IMG/VR virus record: IMGVR_UViG_3300048625_000333
Span: 1 to 23,866 of that record
DNA from: a virus
Direction: 5' to 3' (one strand)
Length of the DNA: 23,866 bases
Both the position numbers and the translations under genes were made by a program. The notes under the pieces are model-generated. The model did no database searches, had not been told where the DNA came from, and saw only the letters and a program-made list of their open reading frames with translations. This document shows, piece by piece, positions 4,372-22,103 of the stretch. Position 1 is the first letter of the stretch, and every line of letters begins with the position of its first letter.

Positions 4372-7300
4372 TGGCTGTTATTTTGCAGTTGCGTCGAGGC
4401 GTTGCCTCTCTTTGGACGTCAGCTAATCCTGTTCTTGCTCAGGGTGAGATGGGTGTTGAAACTGACACTATGAAGGTGAAGATTGGTAATGGTACCTCTA
4501 ATTGGGTTTCGTTGCCTTATTTCACTCAGGGCACTGCTGGTAAGTCTGCGTATGAGATTGCGCTGCTGAATGGTTTCATTGGTACGGAGTCTGCTTGGCT
4601 TGTGTCTTTGAAGGGTGCTGCTGGTCCTGCTGGTCCTGCTAATACTTTGAATGTTGGAACTGTTAGTTCTGGCACTATTCCTTCGGCTTCGATTACTGGC
4701 ACTGCACCTAATCAGACTTTGAACCTTGTATTGCCTAAGGGTGATACTGGTACGACTGGTCCTCAGGGTGCTACTGGTGCAACTGGTGCTACTGGCGCTA
4801 AGGGTGATACTGGTAATACTGGTGCTCAGGGTCCTGCGGGTCCTTCAAATGTTTTGTCTGTTGGTACGGTTGCAACTGGTGCTGCTGGTTCTTCTGCGTC
4901 GATTACGATTGCTGGTACTTCTCCTGCACAGGTTTTGTCTGCGACTATCCCTCAGGGTATTCAGGGTGTTCAGGGTATTCAGGGTATTCAGGGTATTCAG
5001 GGTGATACCGGTGACCAGGGTATTCAGGGTATTCAGGGTGTCAAGGGTGACACTGGTGCTACTGGTGCAACTGGCGCTACTGGTGCTAAGGGTGACCAAG
5101 GTATTCAGGGCATTCAGGGCATTCAGGGTATTCAGGGTGTTAAGGGTGATACTGGTGACCAAGGTATCCAAGGTATTCAGGGTGTCAAGGGTGACAAGGG
5201 TGATACTGGTGCAACTGGTGCAACTGGTGCTACTGGTGCTACTGGTCTTAACTGGCAGGGCACTTGGTCAAACACTGCCGATTACGTAAATGATGATGCT
5301 GTTTACTACAACAACTCTTCTTGGTTTGCTTCAGGTGACCCAACTGTTGGTGAAGTTCCTTCACTGAGCGCAACTCACTGGATGCCTTTGGCTTTGCAGG
5401 GTGCAACTGGTGCTACTGGTGCAACTGGTGCTACTGGTGCTACTGGTGCTAAGGGTGACCAAGGTATTCAGGGTATTCAAGGTGTTAAGGGTGATACTGG
5501 CGACCAGGGCATCCAGGGTATTCAAGGTGTTAAGGGTGATACTGGTGCTACTGGTGCTACTGGTGCTACTGGTCCTGGTGTAAAAACTGGTGGTACAACT
5601 AACCAGATTCTTGCTAAGGCTAGTGCTGCAGATTTTGATACCCAATGGGTTAATGCACCTAATGCACCGAATGGTATGCCAACTGGTGGCTCTACTGGGC
5701 AGTTCCTTGCCAAAGTTGATGGTGCTGATTACAACACCACTTGGACTTCTACTGCCCCTTCAGCTGGCTACACGTCAGTTATTAAGCATGAAGTAAAACT
5801 TGGTGAAGCAATTGCTAAGGGTCAAGCAGTTTATGTAAGTTCTTCTAATGGAACGAACATGATTGTTTCAAAGGCTTCAAATGCTGCTGAGGCAACCTCT
5901 TCTAAGACTATGGGTTTGCTTGAAACTGGTGGTTCAACTAACGCTTTTGTAAACGTCATTACTGAAGGTTTGCTTGCTGGGCTAGATACTGGTACTGCTA
6001 CTGCTGGTGATGCTGTTTGGTTGGGCACTGCAGGCAACCTTATCTTCTGGCATTATGGTGGTTCAACTACTAAGCCTTCAGCTCCAGACCACCTTGTCTT
6101 TATTGGTATTGTGACTCGTGCACATGCAACTAATGGTGAAATCTTTATCAAGGTTCAGAATGGTTTTGAACTTGAAGAGTTGCATAACGTTGCTATTGGT
6201 AGTATCGCTAATGGTGACCTTATTAAGTATGATTCTGCTACTGGTCTGTGGAAGAATGCTGCACAGTCAACACTAACTATTGGACCTTCACAGGTTACTG
6301 GCACTGCAGTTATTACTACTGATTCACGTCTAAGTGATGCTCGTACACCTACCGCTCACACTCACGCAGAGTCTGAGATTACTGGGTTAGTTAGCGACCT
6401 TGCTGGTAAAGCGCCAACTGTGCATACGCACACTAAGTCCCAGATTACTGACTTTGCTCACACGCACCCTACGAGCGAAGTTACCGGCTTAGATACTGCA
6501 CTTGGTTTGCTTGCTCCAAAAGCATCGCCTACCTTTACTGGCACTGTAACTACGCCATTGACTGCTGGCTTTGTGAAGTCAAGCGCTGGTGGAGTTCTTA
6601 GCTCATCAACGATTGCTGAATCAGATGTAACTAACCTAACTACTGACCTTGCGGCAAAAGCCCCAACTGCATCACCTACCTTTACTGGCACTGTAACTAC
6701 GCCTTTGACAACTGCAGGGTTTGTAAAGACTTCTGCTGGTGGTGTGCTCTCAAGTTCCGCTGTAATTGCTCAGTCCGATGTAACTAACCTAACTACTGAC
6801 CTTGCGGCAAAAGCCCCAACTGCATCACCTACCTTTACTGGCACTGTTAACGCCGCTGGAATTATTTCAAGCACTAGCATTACTGGTACAACTCCAGTTA
6901 ATGGTGGCAGCTCTGGCGGTTTAGTTATCCGTGCTCCCGCATCTGGAACACAAACAAGCTCTTACTTACAGTTTGTGAACAATGCTAACAGTGCACAGTG
7001 GGGCTCAATCGAAGCAACTACCGCTAGTATAATGAACTACAGCGGAACAGCCCATAACTTTAATGCAGCAATCACATCTGCTAGCAACGTATTTGCTAAC
7101 CTCGGAACGTACGACCAGTTCCGTGCTCTTTCCACCAATTATGGTGCAATGATTAGAAACGATGACTCTAACACCTATATTCTTATAACTGCTTCTGGAG
7201 ACAAACTTGGTTCGTGGAATGCTTTAAGACCGTTCTACATTAACAACTCCACAGGTCTTGTTAAGATGGATAACGGTTTCCAGGGTAATAACAGAGCATA

Positions 7301-10635: not shown

Positions 10636-11230
10636 TTTCTGCTTCAATAATCTCTGCAGTTGTAGCCCGTGTCATAGCATCATGCTTCGCACACTCACCA
10701 GATAACGGTAGGAATGGTTTGGTGTGCTCTGGGCGCTCGCCGTAATGTGGGTCGTTCAAAGCATGCCAAGTGTTGTGGCAGTGGTCGCAAATCCGGTGCA
10801 GGTTGCCAGGAGCGTTGTTCATGGTATTTTTATCAGGTCCATGATGACGGTCTGAAGCAGGTCGTCCAACGCATCCAACGATTGGAATAACTCCTCCGCC
10901 TGCGAGCTTAAGACCTGCCCACTCACAGACCATGCCCGCATTGATTGGGTACATTTCTTTAGCTCGCTTACGTCCAGTAGAAACTGGGTCACTGTACTCG
11001 CTGAGAGATTTAGTGCCTTGATAGCCGTCGTCGATGTACCCATTATCAATACTTTCATTACCTGTTAGATGTGTTTCATCATTTGCAACAATGACGTTAC
11101 CTGCCATGTCAAACTTTACTTCGCCACCACAACAACACTCTTGCTCAGCGACCTCTAACCATACAGACTCGCACTCATTGTGAAAGCCTGCACGGCAACC
11201 AAAGCAAGGGTTATCGCTTCCAGTACTCAT
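10616..11230 (-). CDS. HNH endonuclease with N-terminal Cys clusters
   Basis: A 204-residue protein from ATG at 11230, chosen for its GAGG ribosome site; longer upstream starts would lie deeper inside the helicase gene. The C-terminal half carries an HNH core: DRHHGPDKNT (H129/H130), NLHRICDHCHNTWH (N143, H145, the C148/C151 zinc pair, H152 and H156). The N-terminus has CFGC and a later CCCGGE, suggesting a second metal site. HNH nucleases in phage replication modules include homing enzymes and packaging or host-DNA-cutting enzymes. It overlaps the primase-helicase gene by 20 bases, so it belongs to that operon rather than looking like a free-standing inserted homing gene. Confidence 0.8.
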   Translation of the reverse strand: MSTGSDNPCFGCRAGFHNECESVWLEVAEQECCCGGEVKFDMAGNVIVANDETHLTGNESIDNGYIDDGYQGTKSLSEYSDPVSTGRKRAKEMYPINAGMVCEWAGLKLAGGGVIPIVGCVGRPASDRHHGPDKNTMNNAPGNLHRICDHCHNTWHALNDPHYGERPEHTKPFLPLSGECAKHDAMTRATTAEIIEAETKRLQA

Positions 11231-13721
11231 CTTTTTCCTCACTGTCAATGTAGCCAAGGATGTCGTTGATTGATGACTTGTTGTTGGTTGCGTCAACCTT
11301 TAGTAGTTCTACACCTGAGAACATTTTGTAACCAGCACTGGTTGATTCGGCAACACCTAGGCGACCCTTCACTTCACGACTCAAAGAGTTCTGGGTGACA
11401 GGCTTCTCGCCGTTCTCAGCACACCATTCACGGTAAGCGTTGTACAACGAAACCTTAGCCACGGTTGCAGTATCAGCAAGGATGGTCTTCTCGTCCAAGA
11501 ACTTTGCAATGTGGTCTTCTTCGTGACGGTATGACTGGGTTGCCATCTTGACCGACTCAGGTTCACTGAAGCCTTGAATGGTTACACGAACAGCACCGTC
11601 AATCATCCACTGCAAAATACCTGCACCCTCTTCTTCTACAAGGATTTTAGCCAAGTTTTCTTTGCGCTTATCAGCTGGAATAGTTTTGTTAAAATCAATT
11701 TTCCGGAGTCTTCTCCAGAAGCCGTCACCACCAGACTTAACCTCTGGCAGGTGATTAACCGCCATGAAAAGTGTATGAGTTGGCTTAAAGTCAAAGAAGT
11801 TTTGCCCCATAAAGCGTGCTGATAGAGTGTCGCCACCAGTAAGCATTTTAACGCGAGATTCATTGAACTTACCATCAGGTCGTGTTTCAGAAGCAACTGC
11901 CAATCTGACACCGCGTAAGCGTGCAATGTCTGCAGGGTGGGCGTTTCCCGTTGTATCCAATAGGAAATTCTCAGGCATTGTGGCTGCATAATCGTTTAGG
12001 ATTCCTGCGATGACGTCAATGATGGTCGACTTACCGTTGGCTCCAGTGCCAACAAATACTGGTAGAACATGGAAGCGTGAATCTCCGAATAAGGAAGCCC
12101 CGAAAAGCTCTTGGACATAAGCAATACGCTCAGCGTCTTCAATAGTTTCTCTGAGGAAGGTGTCCCATAAAGGTGTATGTGCTTGTCTTGGAGTGACGGA
12201 TGTCTGTCGAGTATTGAGGTCGATACCCTTAATGGCAGGGCGCAGTTCACCTGTGAGCAAGTTGACGATGCCATCAGGCGTACAAATGCTGTTCGCCTCC
12301 GCATCCAAATCAATTGCAGGTATAAGAATTTCAGGTGACGTGGCGCTGATAGTAATGGCATTGTTTAGTCTCTCTTTGTTTTGTGAAGACTCAATCCAAC
12401 GGTAGCCTTCTTTGCCTAACTCTAACGCCTTAGCAGGCTGCAAAGCATCAATGGCGGTCTGAATAATAGATTTGTCTTTATCGATTACGTAACGGGAACC
12501 ATCCCAGAAATGCCAACCAACATCAGTAACGTGACGGTAACCGCCCTGCATCCAATAGTTTAAACGAAACGAGTTCGAAGCGTCATTGAAACCCAACACG
12601 TCAATGGACTGTTGGTAAACTTCCATAAGGTTTTCGCGACCATCATCGGTGACAGCCTCAAGTTCTAAACCCCTATCGCTACCAGAAGAAGCAGCATTGT
12701 GCTGGTGACCGCGCACTTCCTCCTTCAACTTAGCTGGGCTGAACGATTCAACACGTGCAACAGCCCAACGATTAGCCGACTCCAACTCGCCCTTATTCAT
12801 CTCACGAGATGGTGCATCCTTCAAGAATGCACGGAAACGCTCATCCAAGATAGTAACCAGTTTGTGCGCTGACGACTCAGTAAGGCAACCATTACGGTGA
12901 GCAGCATTAACCTTAATTAACTGCTGAACCAACCAACCATGACGAGACTTAGGTGCACCATTAGTAGGTGCAACTGACTGGAACAAATGAGTCACCCAGT
13001 GGCAGTCCTCAGCAACATACTCCCACTCAGAAGAACCAGAAACAAGACTGAACTCTTCAGGCATCGTATGCACTGAAGTAAAACCGTGAGTGATAAGAAC
13101 ATCATCCAACTCAGCCAACGACAGTGGACGCCACTGCTCAGGCAAATCTACACGTACAGGTACCGGATTAGCCACATCCTTATAATTAACGCCTCCAACG
13201 GCGCGGAAAATACGTGGGAGGTCGAACACTGAGTCAAGTTGACCGCCTTGGGAAGCAGCCATATACCTAACAAACGCACCCCATCGAGCCAAAACCCCTG
13301 CAGCTTGCTCCTGCGTGTAATCTTCCTCGGGGTCAATAGCCCAATATGGTTGTAACCCATGCCCCGAATGTACAACAGCACTAGGGGCAACACCAATAAG
13401 CTCCGCCAAAAGGTCAACCAACTGTGACGCATTGCCCTCAGACTGAATACCAGTGTCTTTGTAGTCGATGTCAACCCAGACCGCTGCGAGACGTGTGATG
13501 TCATTTGCCGTGGCACGCCCAGACACGTTGGAAGGGTTAATCTCATACCAAACATTCGCCTTCATCTCAGTTAAAGCTTCAACAACAGTGTCAGCAAACG
13601 ACACCTTCACCTGCTTCACACGGAAACCCTGCGTAGCAGACTGGTAACAAACTGTTACGGAGTTATCCTCAACGTAACCTAAACGTTCTAATAGTTCTTG
13701 AAAAGGCTTGGTCATAGCCAT
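11211..13721 (-). CDS. PrimPol-type primase fused to SF3 (D5/P4-like) helicase
   Basis: An 836-residue replication protein. The N-terminal archaeo-eukaryotic primase shows VWVDIDY (D84, D86), VVHSGHGLQPYW (residues 117-127) and FDLPRIFRAVGG with a third acidic residue near 167. The C-terminal superfamily 3 helicase shows Walker A GTGANGKST (about 557-564), the VASETRPDGKFNESR acidic motif and motif C LFMAVNHLP, followed by a sensor segment (FWRRLRKIDF) and a P4-type winged-helix tail. It should prime, and perhaps extend, DNA while unwinding the fork. ATG at 13721 is preferred over 13730 because GAAAGGA then has proper spacing. No separate DNA polymerase is seen in the window. The gene lies downstream of a long hairpin. 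Confidence 0.92.
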   Translation of the reverse strand: MAMTKPFQELLERLGYVEDNSVTVCYQSATQGFRVKQVKVSFADTVVEALTEMKANVWYEINPSNVSGRATANDITRLAAVWVDIDYKDTGIQSEGNASQLVDLLAELIGVAPSAVVHSGHGLQPYWAIDPEEDYTQEQAAGVLARWGAFVRYMAASQGGQLDSVFDLPRIFRAVGGVNYKDVANPVPVRVDLPEQWRPLSLAELDDVLITHGFTSVHTMPEEFSLVSGSSEWEYVAEDCHWVTHLFQSVAPTNGAPKSRHGWLVQQLIKVNAAHRNGCLTESSAHKLVTILDERFRAFLKDAPSREMNKGELESANRWAVARVESFSPAKLKEEVRGHQHNAASSGSDRGLELEAVTDDGRENLMEVYQQSIDVLGFNDASNSFRLNYWMQGGYRHVTDVGWHFWDGSRYVIDKDKSIIQTAIDALQPAKALELGKEGYRWIESSQNKERLNNAITISATSPEILIPAIDLDAEANSICTPDGIVNLLTGELRPAIKGIDLNTRQTSVTPRQAHTPLWDTFLRETIEDAERIAYVQELFGASLFGDSRFHVLPVFVGTGANGKSTIIDVIAGILNDYAATMPENFLLDTTGNAHPADIARLRGVRLAVASETRPDGKFNESRVKMLTGGDTLSARFMGQNFFDFKPTHTLFMAVNHLPEVKSGGDGFWRRLRKIDFNKTIPADKRKENLAKILVEEEGAGILQWMIDGAVRVTIQGFSEPESVKMATQSYRHEEDHIAKFLDEKTILADTATVAKVSLYNAYREWCAENGEKPVTQNSLSREVKGRLGVAESTSAGYKMFSGVELLKVDATNNKSSINDILGYIDSEEKDEYWKR

Positions 13722-13746
13722 TCGTCTCATCCTTTCGAGGGTTGAA

Positions 13747-13799: not shown

Positions 13800-14423
13800 C
13801 TAGATTAGGTCTTCAGCAAGGACTGCTTTGACATCGTAAAGGTTAACCTTTACTGCTGCAGCAATCTCTGAGTCATCAAACCCATTCTGGCTAAGAGTTT
13901 TAATCTTAGTCACCTGTTCTGCACTAAGTTTAGCACTCTCTTCAACAGCACCAGAACCCAACAAAGCATCAACAGCCTTGCTAGAACCAGTACCCTCAGC
14001 AATCTTCATACCGTACAACTTAGTAGCATTGAAACGCTTGTTAGCGTTCGGCTTCTCACCGGTGAAAGTGATAGTCACAACCTGACCAACAGCAACAGGC
14101 TTACCGAACTCCTTAACCGCAGCCTTCATCGCAGTCAACTTAGCGCCAACAAGATACAACTTGCGAGTGCCATCATCTTCAGGATTGGTCGGGTCAGAGT
14201 ACTCGGTGTCCAAAGTTAGAACAACCTGCAGCTGAGGCTTGCCGTCATCCCAAAACTTAGGCTCGTTAGAGTCAAAGTCGCGAACCTGAGCGGTCTCCAA
14301 AGCGGTGATAGTGCCGGTGAACGAGTCACCAATCTTCGAATCCTTGAAAGAAATCGAAGGAACCGAAACAGTTGCGAACAACGAGTTAGGGTCTGGAAGG
14401 TTTACATCAGTTACATTTACCAT
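13800..14423 (-). CDS. Probable single-stranded-DNA-binding (OB-fold-like) protein
   Basis: A 207-residue protein. The first 130 residues are beta-rich with repeated short strands (GDSFTGTITALETAQVRDF, PQLQVVLTLDTEY, RKLYLVGAKLTAM, GQVVTITFTGEKP), an arrangement suggestive of an OB fold. The end is helical (AEQVTKIKTLSQNGFDDSEI) and may be a small helical interaction domain. Its place between a Cas4-like nuclease and the primase-helicase fits a replication or recombination SSB, as found at this position in related actinophages. There is no classic acidic SSB tip, though the last residues (LAEDLI) are acidic-hydrophobic. The ribosome site is weak and the leader is AT-rich. The function is inferred. 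Confidence 0.6.
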   Translation of the reverse strand: MVNVTDVNLPDPNSLFATVSVPSISFKDSKIGDSFTGTITALETAQVRDFDSNEPKFWDDGKPQLQVVLTLDTEYSDPTNPEDDGTRKLYLVGAKLTAMKAAVKEFGKPVAVGQVVTITFTGEKPNANKRFNATKLYGMKIAEGTGSSKAVDALLGSGAVEESAKLSAEQVTKIKTLSQNGFDDSEIAAAVKVNLYDVKAVLAEDLI

Positions 14424-14458
14424 TTTATTTTTGCTTTCTTTGTTTTATATTTTGTGAA

Positions 14459-14481
14459 GTAATAACGCCGTCCGTTATTAC
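14459..14481 (-). terminator. Short hairpin over the stop of the Cas4-like gene
   Basis: GTAATAACG (14459-14467), loop CCGTC, CGTTATTAC (14473-14481): a perfect 9-base stem that includes the stop codon of the upstream gene. No U-run follows on the minus strand, so it is more likely an RNA-processing, stability or translation-coupling element than a strong terminator. Confidence 0.5.
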
Positions 14482-15227
14482 CTTTGGATGAATGACTCAA
14501 GGTCATCCTGTTCGCTCTGCTCATACTTTTTACAGTCAAAACAGAACGAAGCCTTAGGTTGCTTTTCAATGACAGCATCCCAGCCAACAATCTCAGCTGC
14601 ATCAATCATCACCTCAAGCGCAGCAAGAGCCTCCATAGCCACCTGCTCGTCATAACGCAACATAACAACCTGTGCGTCTTTCAAATCTTTATCCCTAGGA
14701 AGGAAAGTAAGACTAACATGCGTAACATCGTAACCTTTCTTTTTCCAGCCGAGACCATACAGCATAGCCTGAATACGATACTGCTGCTTAATCTTGCCCT
14801 TCTCAGCCTCAGCTAAAGCTTTAGCGCCAACAACTTTCCAATCGTTAACAACACCAGCCTTCGCATACATGTCACACGAACCACCAAGTTCCAACCCTTT
14901 ATAAGAGTGAACGTGCAAACGATTCTCCAACAAATACTCGTCAGACCATTCACGCCCAGCAAAACCATCCTCCAACGCCTGATGAACAGCCGTACCCATG
15001 AACGGGTACCAACCACCACTAATGTCCTTAGGTTTCTCAGCCAGCTTGCGTGCAACACATTTACGACAATCAGAACCAACCTCAGAAATACCAATAATTT
15101 TCTGATAACTACGCTCAGTAACAAATAGCTCCTTGATACGTTTCAGCCACAACTTTGCAGCATCATGCGCCTTCTCATCCTCAACCGTGTAATCGGAAGG
15201 GTTCACATCCAAAATCTTCACAGGCAT
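14478..15227 (-). CDS. Cas4/RecB-like PD-(D/E)XK exonuclease with four cysteines
   Basis: A 249-residue nuclease. ATG at 15227 is chosen because GAGGTGG sits about 7 bases upstream and the previous stop ends just before it. Motifs in order: GSDCRKC (C54, C57), GTAVHQALE (H82), LGGSCDMY (D119), VVNDWKVVG (D129, K131), QQYRIQAMLYGLG (Q149-Y150), then FCFDCKKY (C229, C232). This is the RecB-family nuclease core with cysteines at both ends that could hold a 4Fe-4S cluster, as in Cas4 and AddB. In phages such enzymes resect DNA for recombination. No CRISPR array or other cas gene is present. It is followed by the SSB-like gene. Confidence 0.82.
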   Translation of the reverse strand: MPVKILDVNPSDYTVEDEKAHDAAKLWLKRIKELFVTERSYQKIIGISEVGSDCRKCVARKLAEKPKDISGGWYPFMGTAVHQALEDGFAGREWSDEYLLENRLHVHSYKGLELGGSCDMYAKAGVVNDWKVVGAKALAEAEKGKIKQQYRIQAMLYGLGWKKKGYDVTHVSLTFLPRDKDLKDAQVVMLRYDEQVAMEALAALEVMIDAAEIVGWDAVIEKQPKASFCFDCKKYEQSEQDDLESFIQR

Positions 15228-15228
15228 C

Positions 15229-15591
15229 TTATGCCACCTCATCTCTCAACAACAATCTAGCATCAGCCTCAGACATTCGCCCACGACGATTACCCCTACT
15301 CCTAAAAGCCTGACGCTCCTTAGGTGACATACCACCCCAAATACCATGCGTCTCATTATGTTTCAACGCATACTCCAAACATTGCAAACGAATCTCACAC
15401 AACGTATTACACAAAGCCTTAGCATTACCAACCTGCTCCTGGTCACCATAACCCCAAGACTCAGCAATATCAAAACCAAACTTCTCAGCATAAAACAAAT
15501 CAGGGGCACTAGCACAAGGAACCTGCCCACCAGCAACCTCAAACGCAAGGTCAGCTAACTTAGCAGCATCCGCACCACGCCTATCAAGCAT
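15229..15591 (-). CDS. WhiB-family Fe-S regulator with unusual Cys spacing
   Basis: A 120-residue protein from ATG at 15591 (15597 is equally possible). Four cysteines: C26 (QVPCASAPDLFY), C61 and C65 (ALCNTLC) and C71 (RLQC). The family signature GIWGG (residues 83-87) and a basic tail (RSRGNRRGR) follow. WhiB-like proteins bind a 4Fe-4S cluster and act with the primary sigma factor; phage copies can alter host septation and block superinfection. The usual spacing is C-x2-C-x5-C, but here it is C-x3-C-x5-C. It overlaps the upstream XRE gene by 8 bases, with a weak ribosome site, suggesting coupled translation. The family points firmly to an actinobacterial host. Confidence 0.9.
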   Translation of the reverse strand: MLDRRGADAAKLADLAFEVAGGQVPCASAPDLFYAEKFGFDIAESWGYGDQEQVGNAKALCNTLCEIRLQCLEYALKHNETHGIWGGMSPKERQAFRSRGNRRGRMSEADARLLLRDEVA

Positions 15592-15817
15592 TAGCATCAA
15601 TCTCATCAGCAACAGCACGCCACAAAGTTGAAGGCTCCATATGCATACCCCGAGCAATATCATTCACCATCGCAAACGAAGGAACCTTAGAACCCTTCTC
15701 AATCTCACTAAGATAAGCCTTAGAAATAGGCACACTCCAAGCAAGGTCAATGTTCTTCATACCCTTACCAACCCGCAACTTACGAATCGTAAAACCCAAC
15801 ACAGCATTATCTCTCAT
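15584..15817 (-). CDS. XRE-family HTH regulator (Cro/CI-like)
   Basis: A 77-residue, single-domain Cro/CI-type DNA-binding protein. The helix-turn-helix runs through IRKLRVGKGMKNIDLAWSVP and SKAYLSEIEKGSKVP, ending in FAMVNDIARGMHMEPSTLW, the classic order of the HTH_3 domain. There is no dimerisation or cleavage domain. The ATG at 15817 has a strong GGAGG site (8-base spacing) that lies inside the end of thyX, with an 11-base overlap. It is co-transcribed with WhiB immediately downstream, so the two regulators are probably produced together. Confidence 0.85.
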   Translation of the reverse strand: MRDNAVLGFTIRKLRVGKGMKNIDLAWSVPISKAYLSEIEKGSKVPSFAMVNDIARGMHMEPSTLWRAVADEIDANA

Positions 15818-16499
15818 TCTGAAAAACCTCCATCGACTTAGGAAAAGCCCGAACAGTCAACTCACGCACAGCCTTTGCATACTCTTGAATCTCAACCTGA
15901 GCATCATGCCCCAAACGCTGCTCCAAAAATGTCATAACACTTTGCAACGAAGCAGTCCAACGCCAACGAACATACATCCCATAAGCAGGTAAAAACAAAC
16001 GAGCAAGCTCAGGAGCAACACCCATGCCCATAGCCTGCTGATACTTCTCCACACCTTTATCAATGTGATACATCAAATCAGCAGTCAACATTATGCCCTT
16101 CTCCATATCCAAAGGAGCACCAGAACCCTGCTTAGAGCTCTCAGGCTTACTACGCCACTCCAACGAGTCTGGAACATAAAACTCTTCCTGCTCAGTAATG
16201 TAACGGCGAGATGATTCATTCCAACCATTCTGGTCATCAACATGAGTAGAAGACACCGCATACTTCCACCACTGACGAGCAACAAAGAGTGGCGCATAAA
16301 CCTCAAAAGTCAAGGCTGCATGACGGAAAGGGCTAGTGTGCCCCTCGCGGACAAGGAAGTCCAGCAGACCAGTGTCACGCTGAGAAAACTCAGTTGACTC
16401 CTTGTCATAGCTGACACGTGCAGCATTCACAACAGATAAGTCAGTGCCTAACTGGTCAACCAATCGGACATAGCCATAATCAAGAACATCTTTATTCAT
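15807..16499 (-). CDS. thyX: Flavin-dependent thymidylate synthase ThyX
   Basis: A 230-residue enzyme that makes dTMP from dUMP using methylene-tetrahydrofolate, FAD and NADPH. Recognisable parts are GHTSPFRHAALTFEV (residues 53-67), the variant ThyX motif starting ARQWWKYAVSSTH (from residue 74) and ending NESSRRY (94-100), and a C-terminal LRL-like helix. The motif differs from the textbook RHRx7S but retains the NE-S-RY half that binds dUMP. Length is typical. The start follows the helicase stop directly (TAAATG) with a GGGAG site. Phage ThyX supplements host dTMP during replication. Confidence 0.93.
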   Translation of the reverse strand: MNKDVLDYGYVRLVDQLGTDLSVVNAARVSYDKESTEFSQRDTGLLDFLVREGHTSPFRHAALTFEVYAPLFVARQWWKYAVSSTHVDDQNGWNESSRRYITEQEEFYVPDSLEWRSKPESSKQGSGAPLDMEKGIMLTADLMYHIDKGVEKYQQAMGMGVAPELARLFLPAYGMYVRWRWTASLQSVMTFLEQRLGHDAQVEIQEYAKAVRELTVRAFPKSMEVFQNER

Positions 16500-18020
16500 T
16501 TACTTCTCTCCCTTATTCAAACGGGCAAGAATGTCACGCCCAAACTCAACACCACGCGAACCATCCAACAGCTCACGAGTAACCTTATACCTCTTAGACA
16601 CCTGCTCCAAAATCGCTTGGTCAATCGTATTCTGAGCAATCAGATTCCAAATCGTCACATGATGCATGTTAGAAGCACGATGCACACGGTCCTCAATCTG
16701 CTCAATACGGTCAGGGTCATAAGGTGAGTCAAGCATAATCAAGTCATCGGCAGCATCAAGATTAATGCCCACACCCATAGACCCAGAAAGCAACACCACG
16801 CGAAGACCCGCAGTCTGAAACTCACGCTGAATAGATGCGCGAGCACTGTCACTTGCCCCACCATCCAACACAGCACTTTCAATACCTCTAACATCTAACT
16901 CCGCCTTAAGCCAGTGCAAAACTTTCGAGAAGGACGAGACGATGACAACCTTCGCACTGTTATCTGCCATGTCATCCCGTTCAGTAAATCCACGCTCATC
17001 GAACCACTCCAAAAGCCAGTCAAGTTTGGCTGAGTCTCCACCAACAACAGGGACAACACCACCGTCAACCTCTTTCCACGAACATGTGGATAACTGCCTC
17101 GCGCGAAGTGCAAAGACCATCGCTTCCCCACTGTCACGCTCTTCCACTTTGGCATCATAAATCTTCCTCACACTCTCCAACTGACGTAACGCATAAGCAG
17201 CCTGCTGCTCACGCCCCAACTCAACCTCAACATCCACATACCTCTTAGGAGGCAACTGCGGCAACACCTCCTGCTTAGTGCGACGAATCATCCACTGCTT
17301 ATCACGCTCCAGCCACACCTGCTCAGACTTCAAACCAGCAGGAACCTTCACAGTGCGAGTCCGAGAAACCTTCTGCTCATTCAACCAAAAGTTCTCCTCC
17401 AACCACACCCACTTAGAAGCAGGCATGTGCTCAGGATGCAAAAACATCCAAGTGCCATAACGGTTATCCAACTTGCCACGGTCAGGAGTCCCAGACACAG
17501 CCACACGAAAAGCATCCCTACCAAACTTCAACTGCAACAAACCCTTCCAAAAGTTGGTAAGTTTACGCGGGTCTTTGATAGGCAACACCATGTGCGACTC
17601 ATCCACAACAACAGCATCATAAGGTGTGCCAGCAATCTCAGGCACACGCAAACCCTTAGCCGTCATGTCAAGGGCGTTATGATTAGCCAACACAATCACC
17701 GGCACATCACCAAACACCTGCTTGAACTGCTTAGACTTCTGAGAAGCCGTGCCCTTGCTAACATCCACAACACCAACGTCATAACGAGGCTTCACAAACC
17801 GTTCAATAGTGTCACGCCAAGTAGTCTGCGCGTTAACAATAGGCGTCACAATCAAAATCGTAGAAGGCTTACCAAACAGCCCAGCCAACTCCAACCCAGC
17901 CAACACCTCCAACGTCTTACCCAACCCAGGTTGGTCAGCTAGCAGAATCCGTCTCGATTCTTTTATCCTGCTCGCTGCAACCTGCTGATAAGGATACAAA
18001 ACCTCATCAAACAAACTCAT
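16500..18020 (-). CDS. SNF2-like superfamily 2 DNA helicase/translocase
   Basis: A 506-residue protein with all helicase landmarks: Q-like LYPYQQVAASRI at the start, Walker A ADQPGLGKT (about residues 28-36), motif II DESH (140-143), motif III SGTP (176-179), and in the second RecA domain GVGINLD and QIEDRVHR near residues 420-445. The arrangement matches SNF2/RapA-type translocases carried by many phages, which remodel or unwind DNA during replication and recombination. The ATG overlaps the preceding gene by 4 bases (ATGA), so translation is coupled to the Cys-rich protein. Confidence 0.92.
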   Translation of the reverse strand: MSLFDEVLYPYQQVAASRIKESRRILLADQPGLGKTLEVLAGLELAGLFGKPSTILIVTPIVNAQTTWRDTIERFVKPRYDVGVVDVSKGTASQKSKQFKQVFGDVPVIVLANHNALDMTAKGLRVPEIAGTPYDAVVVDESHMVLPIKDPRKLTNFWKGLLQLKFGRDAFRVAVSGTPDRGKLDNRYGTWMFLHPEHMPASKWVWLEENFWLNEQKVSRTRTVKVPAGLKSEQVWLERDKQWMIRRTKQEVLPQLPPKRYVDVEVELGREQQAAYALRQLESVRKIYDAKVEERDSGEAMVFALRARQLSTCSWKEVDGGVVPVVGGDSAKLDWLLEWFDERGFTERDDMADNSAKVVIVSSFSKVLHWLKAELDVRGIESAVLDGGASDSARASIQREFQTAGLRVVLLSGSMGVGINLDAADDLIMLDSPYDPDRIEQIEDRVHRASNMHHVTIWNLIAQNTIDQAILEQVSKRYKVTRELLDGSRGVEFGRDILARLNKGEK

Positions 18021-18301
18021 TTCCCAGCTGCACTCTCATAATCGTTATCACAGTGGCATGCGTTAGTAGTAGAAGCACCACACCACGAACAACCATTATC
18101 CTCAGTTGCTAGGCAAGTGCCACAGCCCTCATCAGAACAAAGAATACAAAACACATCAGACTTAGCTTTCTCAGCCTTTTCCTCACACCCATTAGTGTCA
18201 CGGCAAGCCTTCACAGCCAACCCACACGTATTACAAGGAGGCAAATACTTATCATCAGTGAACACACTCTTAGAGTTCGTGTGAATCCAAACATACGCCA
18301 T
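18017..18301 (-). CDS. Cysteine-rich zinc-binding small protein
   Basis: A 94-residue protein with about fourteen cysteines in repeated pairs: CNTC, then CRDTNGC, CILC, CGTC, CSWC and a final CHC. This suggests several zinc ribbons or knuckles and no other domain. Start (TAATG) and stop (ATGA) are coupled to the genes on both sides. A role as zinc-binding partner of the downstream helicase is a reasonable inference from the tight coupling, but no family was recognised. Confidence 0.75.
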   Translation of the reverse strand: MAYVWIHTNSKSVFTDDKYLPPCNTCGLAVKACRDTNGCEEKAEKAKSDVFCILCSDEGCGTCLATEDNGCSWCGASTTNACHCDNDYESAAGK

Positions 18302-18681
18302 TAGTGCACCGTCAATCGTGACTTGTTCGAACGCTTGAACATCTCAGGATAATCAGCCACATCAAAATGCTCCTTCACATACTCAGTGTTTACAGCAGTC
18401 TCACGCCAACGAGCAATACTCGCAACCTTCGCACCATGCACAAGGAGAACATCCTTGGAACCAATAGCATCCTTGATAATCGCATCAATGGCATCCTTAC
18501 GAGCCTTCAACGCCTTCAACTGGTCATCCAAATCACCACGCTCAGCCAACAACTCATTAGCCAAAACCGCGTCAGCAACCTCCACAGCCTTCTTATCATC
18601 CTTAGTAGCCTTAGGCACGCCAGTAACCAAACGCTCCTTAGCCTCAGCCACCAAAATACCATACTCTTCAATGCTTTTCAT
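18301..18681 (-). CDS. Coiled-coil protein of replication/recombination operon
   Basis: A 126-residue protein. Residues 25-75 form a long charged helix, likely a coiled coil (LANELLAERGDLDDQLKALK). A small beta region (VLLVHGAKVASIARWRE) and an ending RSNKSRLTVH follow. Small proteins with this layout, a helix then 'V--W-------D...Y---------L-V', accompany RecB/Cas4-like nucleases in many actinophages, with no established function. The ATG at 18681 has a clear AAAGGAG site. The gene order suggests a recombination accessory. Confidence 0.7.
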   Translation of the reverse strand: MKSIEEYGILVAEAKERLVTGVPKATKDDKKAVEVADAVLANELLAERGDLDDQLKALKARKDAIDAIIKDAIGSKDVLLVHGAKVASIARWRETAVNTEYVKEHFDVADYPEMFKRSNKSRLTVH

Positions 18682-18684
18682 GCT

Positions 18685-18927
18685 TTACTCCTTTACTTGC
18701 TTTTCAATAATGTCTAACAGAACTGCTTGCGTAACAAACCTAACGTTATCCGAATCAGGTGTCAAGAACCCAACATGAAACATGTTCCTAATAGTCCTAC
18801 CCTGATGAACAGTCATAACAACATCACCACGCACCCACGAACCCACATACATAGGATTCCCACCCACATACTCATTCCATCCGTGAAACTGCAACGAATC
18901 CCTAATACTCTTACTCAACACTTTCAT
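18685..18927 (-). CDS. Hypothetical small protein
   Basis: An 80-residue protein, mixed alpha/beta, with a Trp/Gly/Met-rich middle (FHGWNEYVGGNPMYVGSWVR) and a helical end. No family recognised. ATG at 18927 has GAAAGG about 8 bases upstream. It is the first gene after the hairpin at 18994-19032 and has the TTTACACCCGACC leader repeat 24 bases before its start, so it may begin a new transcript. Confidence 0.65.
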   Translation of the reverse strand: MKVLSKSIRDSLQFHGWNEYVGGNPMYVGSWVRGDVVMTVHQGRTIRNMFHVGFLTPDSDNVRFVTQAVLLDIIEKQVKE

Positions 18928-18951
18928 GTGCTATCCTTTCAATACACCTTT

Positions 18952-18964
18952 GGTCGGGTGTAAA
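18952..18964 (-). repeat. Leader repeat copy 1, TTTACACCCGACC
   Basis: On the minus strand TTTACACCCGACC lies 24 bases before the start of the 80-residue gene. The same 13 bases occur at 19514-19526 before another start. Here it also forms part of a 6-base inverted repeat (TACACC with GGTGTA). It may be a regulatory site or a duplicated leader. Confidence 0.6.
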
Positions 18965-18993
18965 AAGCTCTTACCTTTCGGGAGCAGTTGGTC

Positions 18994-19032
18994 GCAAAAC
19001 CCCTCTAGCAAATAACGGCAGAGGGGTTTTGC
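18994..19032. terminator. Perfect-stem terminator
   Basis: GCAAAACCCCTCT (18994-19006) pairs with AGAGGGGTTTTGC (19020-19032), a 13-base stem with a 13-base loop. It is just past the stop of the leftward gene at 19039, so it should stop or reduce leftward transcription. T-runs lie inside the arms (GGGGTTTT) on both strands. Confidence 0.75.
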
Positions 19033-19038
19033 TTTACC

Positions 19039-19296
19039 CTAAACTTCCTCTACACCATCCGCATCAATAATGAACGTGCGAACATCAATCTGACCAGCTA
19101 AGGCAGTTATGTCCCTGATTCGCTTGGCTTGCTTGTTGCGCTTGCGTGTGATGTAGCGGGCAAAATCCAACTTGGCATGGTCTAGTTCGCCGTCAAGTTT
19201 CTCCCAGTCCTTATCAAGCCAGTTGGTCGTGTCAAACATACCAACCTTCTCAGTGCCCCAGTTGCCATACTCAGACACATACAAGTTCTTACCCAT
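19039..19296 (-). CDS. Hypothetical small basic protein
   Basis: An 85-residue protein with a Trp-rich N-terminal half (NWGTEKVGMFDTTNWLDKDW), a highly basic helix (ARYITRKRNKQAKRIRDI) and an acidic end (DADGVEEV). The basic helix could bind nucleic acid, but no family is recognised. ATG at 19296 overlaps the upstream stop by one base (TGATG); GTG at 19299 is an alternative. A terminator follows. Confidence 0.65.
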   Translation of the reverse strand: MGKNLYVSEYGNWGTEKVGMFDTTNWLDKDWEKLDGELDHAKLDFARYITRKRNKQAKRIRDITALAGQIDVRTFIIDADGVEEV

Positions 19297-19499
19297 CACT
19301 CGCTCACATCCTCAACTGAAGACAAATCAACCTCAAGGTCAAACGCCTTATCCTTGAAACCAAAACCAACCAAATCAGTAAGGTCAACCTCAGCCAACTG
19401 AACCTGGTCCAACAACTCACGAGCCTGCTCCAAAGACTCAGCCTCAAACCAACCCTTGAACGTGTAGGTCTCCGAATACCAAAACGAATACTCTTTCAT
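19296..19499 (-). CDS. Hypothetical small acidic protein
   Basis: A 67-residue acidic protein from ATG at 19499, selected for its AAAGGAG site; a longer frame would begin before the leader repeat. It begins MKEYSFWYSETYTFKGWFEA, followed by a helix SLEQARELLDQV and an acidic beta/turn end. The layout (aromatic strand, 'A-S-E-A---' helix, strand) is shared with several other small proteins in the window, for example at 20843 and 21371. Function unknown. Confidence 0.65.
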   Translation of the reverse strand: MKEYSFWYSETYTFKGWFEAESLEQARELLDQVQLAEVDLTDLVGFGFKDKAFDLEVDLSSVEDVSE

Positions 19500-19513
19500 T
19501 TGCTTCTCCTTTA

Positions 19514-19526
19514 GGTCGGGTGTAAA
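19514..19526 (-). repeat. Leader repeat copy 2, TTTACACCCGACC
   Basis: Identical to 18952-18964. It lies just after the stop of the HTH gene and 15 bases before the start of the 67-residue gene. Both copies are followed by AAAGG. Confidence 0.6.
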
Positions 19527-19528
19527 CA

Positions 19529-20101
19529 TTACTTCTTCTCATTCAACGGCGGAACAGCACCAACAGGAACAACAGCCAACTCATCAGCCGACAAATTGAA
19601 CCCCTGCTGGTCATTCAAAATCATGCGACAAACAAGAACAGCAGTCGGAAACCAACTAATGTCATCCCAACGGTCATTCTTCTTCACATAATCAGCACGA
19701 ACAGTAAGCCACATAGGCTCCCAAACCTTCGTAACATACCCAGCATGCTTATCAATCTGCGACTCCAACCAAGAACACACATTCTCAGAAGTAAACCGCG
19801 ACAACACAGTCATACCATTCGACTTCTCCAAATCATTCGCACTGGTCTCAGCAATCGGGAACTCACGGTCAAGGTCAGTCATACGATACACACCAGTCTG
19901 AACACCATTACGTTCAATCCAAGCCTGAACCACAACTTTGCGGTAATAAGACGTGCCACCAAGTTGAATAGAACCAAACGGGGCAAGGTGAGAACGCGAA
20001 TCAGTCCGCCAATTTCGCAACTGATTCATGGTGAAATGTGTAGCGTCTGAAACTTCCTTCGCGGAAAGCAAGTCTCCGTAAGTAGGGTGAAAGTGGGGCA
20101 T
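19529..20101 (-). CDS. Excisionase/MerR-like HTH protein
   Basis: A 190-residue protein from ATG at 20101, chosen for its AAAGGAG site. The N-terminal 60 residues form a winged-helix of the MerR/excisionase type: LLSAKEVSDATHFTMNQLRN, then W-R, a wing with GGTSYYRK and a following helix VVVQAWIERNG. The C-terminal 120 residues, with WLESQIDKHAGYVTKVWEPM, are not recognised. It is the first gene leftward of the AT-rich origin, so it likely reads from a promoter within that region and may act on the origin, on its own promoter or in recombination. No integrase is visible in this window. Confidence 0.75.
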   Translation of the reverse strand: MPHFHPTYGDLLSAKEVSDATHFTMNQLRNWRTDSRSHLAPFGSIQLGGTSYYRKVVVQAWIERNGVQTGVYRMTDLDREFPIAETSANDLEKSNGMTVLSRFTSENVCSWLESQIDKHAGYVTKVWEPMWLTVRADYVKKNDRWDDISWFPTAVLVCRMILNDQQGFNLSADELAVVPVGAVPPLNEKK

Positions 20102-20149
20102 AATGTCTCCTTTGAGTAAATGAGTTGAAGTCACTGCGACATCAACTAA

Positions 20150-20403
20150 ATGCTATTTTATGGGGTATTTTTGTTGTTTTGGAACATTTGCTAAAAAAAG
20201 TTTGAAAAAAAATCCCTTATTTTTAGCGGTTTTCACAGATTTTGTATAGATTTCTAAGTCGGTCTATATAGTGAGAAAAAAAAACCTACTCAATGATTAT
20301 CTAGTAGTTTAGTAGATTTTATTTTTTACATAGGCGAAGCGACTACGGATTTTGAAAAAAGTTATCCACAGAGTTATCCACAGGCTAGAACAGTTGTGGA
20401 TAA
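20150..20403. other. Putative replication origin: AT-rich region plus three DnaA boxes
   Basis: Three exact DnaA boxes lie within 42 bases: TTATCCACA at 20362-20370 and 20374-20382 (direct, 12 bases apart) and its reverse complement TGTGGATAA at 20395-20403. Beside them, 20150-20345 is a very AT-rich stretch with A/T runs and TTTGAAAAAA repeated at 20201-20210 and 20351-20360, a good unwinding element. The gap separates two leftward operons, one of which encodes the primase-helicase. Together this suggests a DnaA-dependent origin used by the phage. The minus strand also has a weak TAAAAT -10-like box near 20156 that could serve the HTH gene. Confidence 0.75.
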
Positions 20404-20546
20404 CTTAGCAGTTGCCTAACCACGTTCACGGGGTCCGCGTCATCCGCGTCAAAAAGCACACGCAAGAAACGGTCCTCCCCACAAGACGGGCAAAACTCCA
20501 CGTCAGACACATTCGGACTATTCCATCCGCAAGAATCACAAATCAT
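20385..20546 (-). CDS. 53-residue zinc-ribbon micro-protein
   Basis: Read from ATG at 20546: MICDSCGWNSPNVSD, then FCPSCGEDRF and an acidic helix (FDADDADPVNVVRQL). The two CxxC pairs form a zinc ribbon. AGGA precedes the start, and the start overlaps the upstream stop by one base (TGATG). The last codons encode SYPQLF and contain a DnaA box, so coding and origin sequence overlap. It is the last gene of the micro-gene operon. Confidence 0.7.
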   Translation of the reverse strand: MICDSCGWNSPNVSDVEFCPSCGEDRFLRVLFDADDADPVNVVRQLLSYPQLF

Positions 20547-21544: not shown

Positions 21545-21792
21545 TAGTCTTCGTCCTCGTCTGGCATAAAAATGCCCCATTCTGCTAGTTGGTATTCAAT
21601 AGAATCCTCGTCAAACCCTGCCTCTGATAGGGCGGTAAACGCCCCCTCGAAAACGCTTTCAACGATTGCGTAAGCGTCATGCAAGGTGTCAAAATCGTCA
21701 CCCGTCCAACGGCTTACTTGAATCTGCCAACCCTGTAAACGGTTGTCTACGGTCATCTGCCAGTCATGGCTAGGTGTCGAATAAATGGTCAT
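21544..21792 (-). CDS. Hypothetical small acidic protein
   Basis: An 82-residue protein, strongly acidic at the end (MPDEDED). It begins MTIYSTPSHDWQMTVDNRLQ and has a helical middle (DAYAIVESVFEGAFTALSEA). The start is coupled to the preceding stop (TAATG) with GGGAGTG as ribosome site. Short acidic phage proteins can be DNA mimics or enzyme inhibitors, but nothing specific supports that here. Confidence 0.65.
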   Translation of the reverse strand: MTIYSTPSHDWQMTVDNRLQGWQIQVSRWTGDDFDTLHDAYAIVESVFEGAFTALSEAGFDEDSIEYQLAEWGIFMPDEDED

Positions 21793-22103
21793 TAGTTCAC
21801 TCCCGCCTTTTCTTCTTCTGACAGTTGCGTGTAAGCGCGGGTAAACATGTCCTCGTAATACAGGAATAAGTCAATAGACATAAGGCTAAAAATAGTCGCC
21901 TTGCTGTCCGCGCCAACTTCTTGCCAACGGTCTGATTCCTCTAGAGGCAACTCGCGCCACTCGTCCAAGATGTCACTGTAATAAATAGGAACGAAACCAT
22001 CCGCAAACTCGCGCAATAAGTCTTCGGGGTATTCGCTCGCCATTAGTTGGTCAAGGTTGTTCGCAACCTCGCTTAGAACATCCGCGTAATCTGATAGTGC
22101 CAT
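21792..22103 (-). CDS. Hypothetical acidic helical protein, first gene of micro-gene operon
   Basis: A 103-residue acidic, helical protein beginning MALSDYADVLSEVANNLDQL and including PEDLLREFADGFVPIYYSDI. Antirestriction proteins of the ArdA type also have acidic segments of this sort (for example a 'D-W-E-P' core), and DEWRELPLEESDRWQE is faintly similar, but the resemblance is too weak to name it. The ATG at 22103 has AAAGG (8-base spacing) in a leader that closely matches that of the gene at 23110. The promoter at 22155-22219 should drive it and the eight genes after it. Confidence 0.65.
   Translation of the reverse strand: MALSDYADVLSEVANNLDQLMASEYPEDLLREFADGFVPIYYSDILDEWRELPLEESDRWQEVGADSKATIFSLMSIDLFLYYEDMFTRAYTQLSEEEKAGVN

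Follow-up and report, generated by a model that had tools for sequence, protein, structure and literature searches.

Does a cluster of DnaA boxes beside AT-rich DNA in a phage genome mark a replication start site, and what part would host DnaA play there? The question is raised by the IMG/VR record IMGVR_UViG_3300048625_000333, which is classed as linear and was analysed over its whole length of 23,866 bases (the window). The window encodes a portal, a terminase, a RusA-like resolvase, a tail fibre, exonucleases, a SNF2 helicase, ThyX, WhiB and a PrimPol-SF3 primase-helicase of 839 residues. WhiB and ThyX, together with relatives of the PrimPol in mycobacteriophages (~36% identity) and of the terminase in Arthrobacter phages (46% identity), point to a phage of actinobacteria. 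A host of lower GC content, at which a preliminary description of this DNA had hinted, is compatible with a 47% GC genome that carries WhiB and ThyX. Two scans of genome_contigs with the PrimPol and terminase as queries recovered no relative. The ThyX gene (15807-16499) looks like an accessory gene between those for the SNF2 helicase and WhiB; it was found in the window and in one relative, G003, and in none of the other relatives searched. Elsewhere in the record, a small protein (21792-22103) weakly resembles an ocr-like anti-restriction family over 30 residues (E 1.5e-4), and two stretches within the tail-fibre gene (5190-5236 and 5532-5576), with 91-96% identity to Klebsiella phage records, are probably collagen-like repeats.

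Table 1. The putative initiation element and the gene block that it heads, in window coordinates.
Feature	Position	Strand	Remarks
PrimPol-SF3 (D5-type) primase-helicase	11211-13730	-	Far end of the same-strand block headed by orf201
Block from orf201 to PrimPol	13800-19529	-	Small ORFs, RecE-like exonuclease fragment, SNF2 helicase, ThyX, WhiB, exonuclease
orf201 (201-aa protein)	19529-20134	-	Candidate palindrome-binding initiator or autoregulator; MerR/BldC/excisionase-like winged helix
AT-rich leader between palindrome and orf201	20135-20257		Candidate unwinding element; 71% AT
Imperfect palindrome, 86 bp	20258-20343		Ends GTCG...CGAC; lineage-specific centre; proposed orf201 binding site
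Tandem DnaA-box pair, TTATCCACA-GAG-TTATCCACA	20362-20382	+	12-bp pitch; box centres 65.5 and 77.5 bp from the palindrome centre
Third DnaA box, inverted	20395-20403	-	98.5 bp from the palindrome centre

The preliminary description had reported three exact 9-base DnaA boxes, TTATCCACA, and these are present at 20362-20370 (+), 20374-20382 (+) and 20395-20403 (-). Under a first-order Markov model the chance expectation for such a triple within 42 bp in the window is ~7e-9, which argues for an origin. Over the whole window five exact boxes were observed against 0.20 expected under the same type of model, the other two falling within the coding sequences of the terminase (3357) and the SNF2 helicase (17085). 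No dnaA gene was found. DnaA-trios were sought by a published criterion, at least three trios no more than 16 bp from a box (PMC8287927); no run of three or more (NAN, 3'->5') was found within 16 bp of the boxes, which counts against an origin. A TAGTAG-like stretch near 20303-20316 was rejected as a candidate for such trios, as it belongs to the centre of the palindrome and is too distant from the boxes. A short zinc-ribbon-like reading frame lies upstream (20385-20546, minus strand); its end adjoins the tandem boxes and the third box falls inside its 3' end. In relatives such as G017 this frame, read by eye, stops at the TAA contained in the first box.

Alignment of the DNA upstream of orf201 revealed a large palindrome next to the boxes (Table 1); neither the palindrome nor the conserved box geometry figured in the preliminary description. 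In the window 27 of its 45 arm positions are paired, compared with at most 24 in 100 shuffles. The AT-rich stretch that had been described beside the boxes is confirmed: AT content reaches 71% in 20135-20260 and 72% in 20150-20345, against 52.5% window-wide. DNA stability reaches its minimum for the record in a 100-bp stretch centred near 20282, in the leader and palindrome. Boxes and AT-rich DNA lie essentially between genes, in front of the block of replication genes. The repeats here are inverted, and no conserved array of direct-repeat iterons was found. The possibility that the palindrome belongs to a dispersed operator network was set aside because in most of the genomes tested nothing elsewhere matches its half-sites comparably well, which favours an origin.

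Relatives were collected through PrimPol (20 loci) and through orf201, with a single query (8 loci) or an alignment (17 loci). Where the records reach, the gene order is a small-gene region, orf201, SNF2 helicase, exonuclease and PrimPol, all on one strand, and the element sits upstream of the orf201-to-PrimPol block in the relatives that cover that region, which favours an origin. Each of the 19 records (window and relatives) has the palindrome, with its dyad equally placed, its GTCG and CGAC ends conserved and its centre differing by lineage; in a few relatives its fixed-length score is within the shuffle range, and the evidence there is position and the similar end sequences. The palindrome region is the least stable 100 bp in 12 of the 13 records tested and a close second in the remaining one (G002), again as expected of an origin.

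DnaA boxes accompany the palindrome in 13 of the 19 records, mostly at set distances from its centre. Boxes are thus kept in close relatives, whose lack of them the preliminary description had named as grounds for refuting its proposal. Measured from the palindrome centre, the boxes of the window and of L188 lie at -98.5, -77.5 and -65.5 bp, in identical orientations; the L188 record was fetched after this geometry had been described, and its orf201 is only 55% identical to that of the window. Such constancy of distance among divergent relatives speaks for an origin. The third, inverted box is positioned likewise in G012. The tandem pair is spaced as in the window in G012, L188, G020 and L197 and within ~1 bp of that position in G005 and G017; it lies ~9 bp closer to the palindrome in G002 and G004 and ~8 bp farther away in G006. 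A single inverted box pair replaces the tandem pair in G019 and in L193/L194. G005 and L197 have an additional box in mirror orientation at +65, a further point for an origin. By contrast, the palindrome stands without any box, defined as none at one mismatch or fewer within the upstream stretch searched, in six of the 19 records (L029, G007, G008, G010, G016 and L198), which counts against one. All four box-less records included in the stability test are among the 12 in which the least stable DNA lies here. On the orf201 tree, the distribution of boxes takes at least three gains or losses. Because palindrome, low-stability DNA and position are kept both with and without boxes, these three look like the core of the element, to which the DnaA boxes seem to be an optional extra. 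The DnaA-box origin of the preliminary description is accordingly upheld in part: boxes, AT-rich low-stability DNA and a place at the head of the replication block do make an origin-like element, but with six of 19 palindromes box-less a core role of the boxes is not supported.

The best candidate for a palindrome-binding protein is orf201. Its winged helix is predicted at about residues 14-76 and is followed by a helical C-terminal domain without a confident match (mean pLDDT 78, pTM 0.50 for the predicted structure). Among solved structures, Streptomyces BldC comes closest to the winged helix (Foldseek probability 1.00, but E = 0.05). The closest folds overall, at weak E-values, are those of transcription factors and excisionases, and there are weak matches to TubR and to other DNA-segregation or transfer proteins. 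In Pfam, orf201 has a sub-threshold HTH_17 match only, and INPHARED contained no match. Comparison with initiator and Rep families also gave no match, which weighs against an origin. Across 11 records, similarity of the palindrome centre correlates better with orf201 (Mantel r 0.78) than with PrimPol (0.59) or SNF2 (0.41); the correlation with a Cro/C1-like repressor is 0.57. Palindrome similarity likewise follows the orf201 winged helix (0.70) more closely than the PrimPol C-terminus (0.50). An adjacent winged-helix gene that tracks the palindrome best is a point for an origin. These Mantel figures include the shared ancestry of related genomes, and this, too, weighs against an origin, as does the PrimPol C-terminus itself, a DNA-binding-like domain with a Pox_D5 match and a sub-threshold RFX match.

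The GC-skew minimum that an origin might be expected to show is not at the element. The cumulative minimum lies 3.3-4.2 kb off in the strongly skewed G002, G004 and G007, where it coincides with a gene-strand switch adjoining a repressor gene. The window and G012 are also strongly skewed but incomplete, the minimum of the window falling near the contig end, and G017, G006, G008, G010 and G016 have no clear cumulative minimum. The third-position skew of same-strand genes jumps across the element in the skewed lineages, from -0.13 to +0.50 in the window, and fades 6 kb beyond it, which is compatible with transcription as much as with replication. GC skew is not diagnostic for the position of an origin in these genomes, and the minimum elsewhere counts against one. 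The coding-strand third-position skew itself, +0.4 to +0.68, is confined to ~6 kb downstream of the element in the window (14400-20100), G002, G004, G007 and G012; it is absent from G017, G006, G008, G010 and G016.

Taken as a whole, this element, which uncultured phages of one actinobacterial family have in common, resembles a site where phage replication starts. We consider it reasonably probable that it is a replication-initiation element in which orf201 occupies the palindrome, the AT-rich stretch unwinds and host DnaA assists. The protein encoded alongside, most likely orf201, would bind the 86-bp palindrome, and host DnaA would bind the tandem boxes ~65 and ~77 bp from its centre and, in two relatives, the mirror box as well. 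The strain that both impose would open the adjoining AT-rich DNA, where the PrimPol-SF3 helicase of the phage would be loaded. DnaA would act as an accessory, as in DnaA-assisted plasmid origins, and not as the core initiator; that it recruits the PrimPol, as had been suggested, is possible. Because some related phages have no boxes, these are probably an optional route to borrow the replication starter protein of the host; box-less relatives presumably open the equivalent site by phage proteins alone. A more specific version is put forward tentatively, namely that the large palindrome is bound not by an initiator of the Rep or O type but by a MerR/BldC-like winged-helix protein, which also loads the PrimPol-SF3 helicase; host DnaA would be an optional partner, gained or lost repeatedly inside a single phage family.

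The main rival to a replication start site is a purely regulatory element, in which orf201 is a MerR/BldC-like regulator bound to the palindrome in front of the operon that includes its gene, and DnaA at the boxes adjusts early transcription to the replication state of the host, while replication starts elsewhere or through recombination. DnaA is a known transcription factor, the nearest folds to orf201 are transcription factors such as BldC, the palindrome does lie upstream of the operon, and sigma-70-like promoters can be seen by eye between palindrome and gene in several relatives; moreover, much of the GC skew is explained by gene strand. Yet the palindrome is more than 100 bp upstream of the orf201 start, a consensus promoter scan of the window found no promoter at the element, and regulation accounts poorly for the combination of low stability, a palindrome and boxes at a set distance from it, with mirror boxes in two relatives. 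We regard this explanation as rather unlikely, albeit one to be taken seriously.

The excisionase-like winged helix of orf201 and its weak structural matches to TubR and to DNA-segregation and transfer proteins would also suit a recombination (attachment) or partition site bound by an excisionase-like or centromere-binding protein. Such sites would not be expected to carry DnaA boxes at set distances, however, and no integrase, ParA or TubZ was found among the scanned proteins (part of the ORFs) of the window and G017, so that we consider this improbable. Least probable of all is a DnaA decoy whose boxes titrate host DnaA and stop host initiation during infection. The boxes are of consensus sequence and a multicopy phage genome would presumably bring many of them, but there are just two or three per element, held at a set distance from the palindrome, and a decoy needs neither position nor orientation.

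The proposed start site shares features with several known systems. In iteron plasmids, including P1, DnaA sites adjoin sites for a winged-helix plasmid or phage protein, and their position and orientation matter (PMC4980987). Like the origins of RK2, F, pSC101 and P1 oriR, the element has an adjacent winged-helix gene, boxes whose position and orientation are kept and AT-rich unwinding DNA (PMC4980987). It has boxes fixed beside a putative initiator site, as we infer the palindrome to be, as well as the AT-rich DNA of low stability, both as in DnaA-assisted plasmid origins; orf201, with its predicted winged helix and its covariation with the palindrome, is a candidate counterpart of the site-binding initiator encoded beside such origins. 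Unlike the iteron plasmids, it has one large palindrome with a lineage-specific centre in place of direct-repeat iterons, orf201 has no Rep family match, and the helicase would be PrimPol-SF3 and not host DnaB. At oriR of plasmid R1, DnaA is reported to bind its box only with RepA bound beside it (PMC5883639). There, too, a DnaA box adjoins the (here putative) site of an element-encoded protein, whereas orf201 has no detected similarity to a RepA family and no such palindrome is described for R1 (PMC5883639). Tandem DnaA boxes at a short pitch are also found in the basal unwinding system of bacterial oriC (PMC8287927, PMC6669920), from which the element differs in having no DnaA-trios near the boxes and no dnaA gene found.

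SF3 initiator-helicase origins, such as alpha of phage P4, combine repeats with AT-rich DNA. The present phage resembles them in these respects and in a PrimPol-SF3 whose C-terminus gives a winged-helix-like match (Pox_D5, sub-threshold RFX), but here the palindrome tracks orf201 above the PrimPol C-terminus, and there are a separate DNA-binding gene and DnaA boxes. The iterons of phage lambda lie within gene O, and lambda uses host DnaB; the element described here is intergenic, and its phage has its own PrimPol-SF3. Lambda is nevertheless similar as a tailed phage with DnaA-box-like sites near its origin, where DnaA-protected sites have been described, and in a link between transcription and initiation (PMC3985674). 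The element differs from the plasmid and lambda origins in its large palindrome in the place of iterons, its Rep-unlike orf201 and its PrimPol-SF3 helicase.

To our knowledge, few origins have been mapped among phages with PrimPol-SF3 helicases, and none of them turned out to have a DnaA-box origin in the literature searched. Two distant relatives, phages Jasmine (searched whole) and TM4 (30000-52797), contain no exact TTATCCACA or TTGTCCACA. DnaA boxes had been called uncommon in tailed phages, a view that is not supported: the tandem pair TGTGGATAANNNTGTGGATAA occurs in at least 120 IMG/VR contigs, against 6 for the control, the identical pattern read backwards, and lambda and P1 are precedents (PMC3985674, PMC4980987). 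Among the tandem pairs listed (L066-L185), a simple ORF call places 64 of 120 between genes; the spacer met most often among these matches, which have a 12-bp pitch, is CTC. The wide spread of tandem boxes in viral contigs suggests that borrowing of host DnaA may be commoner in phages than the preliminary description assumed. The phage family described here is a natural experiment, in which palindrome and low-stability DNA occur with and without boxes, so that dependence on the host initiator could be compared directly.
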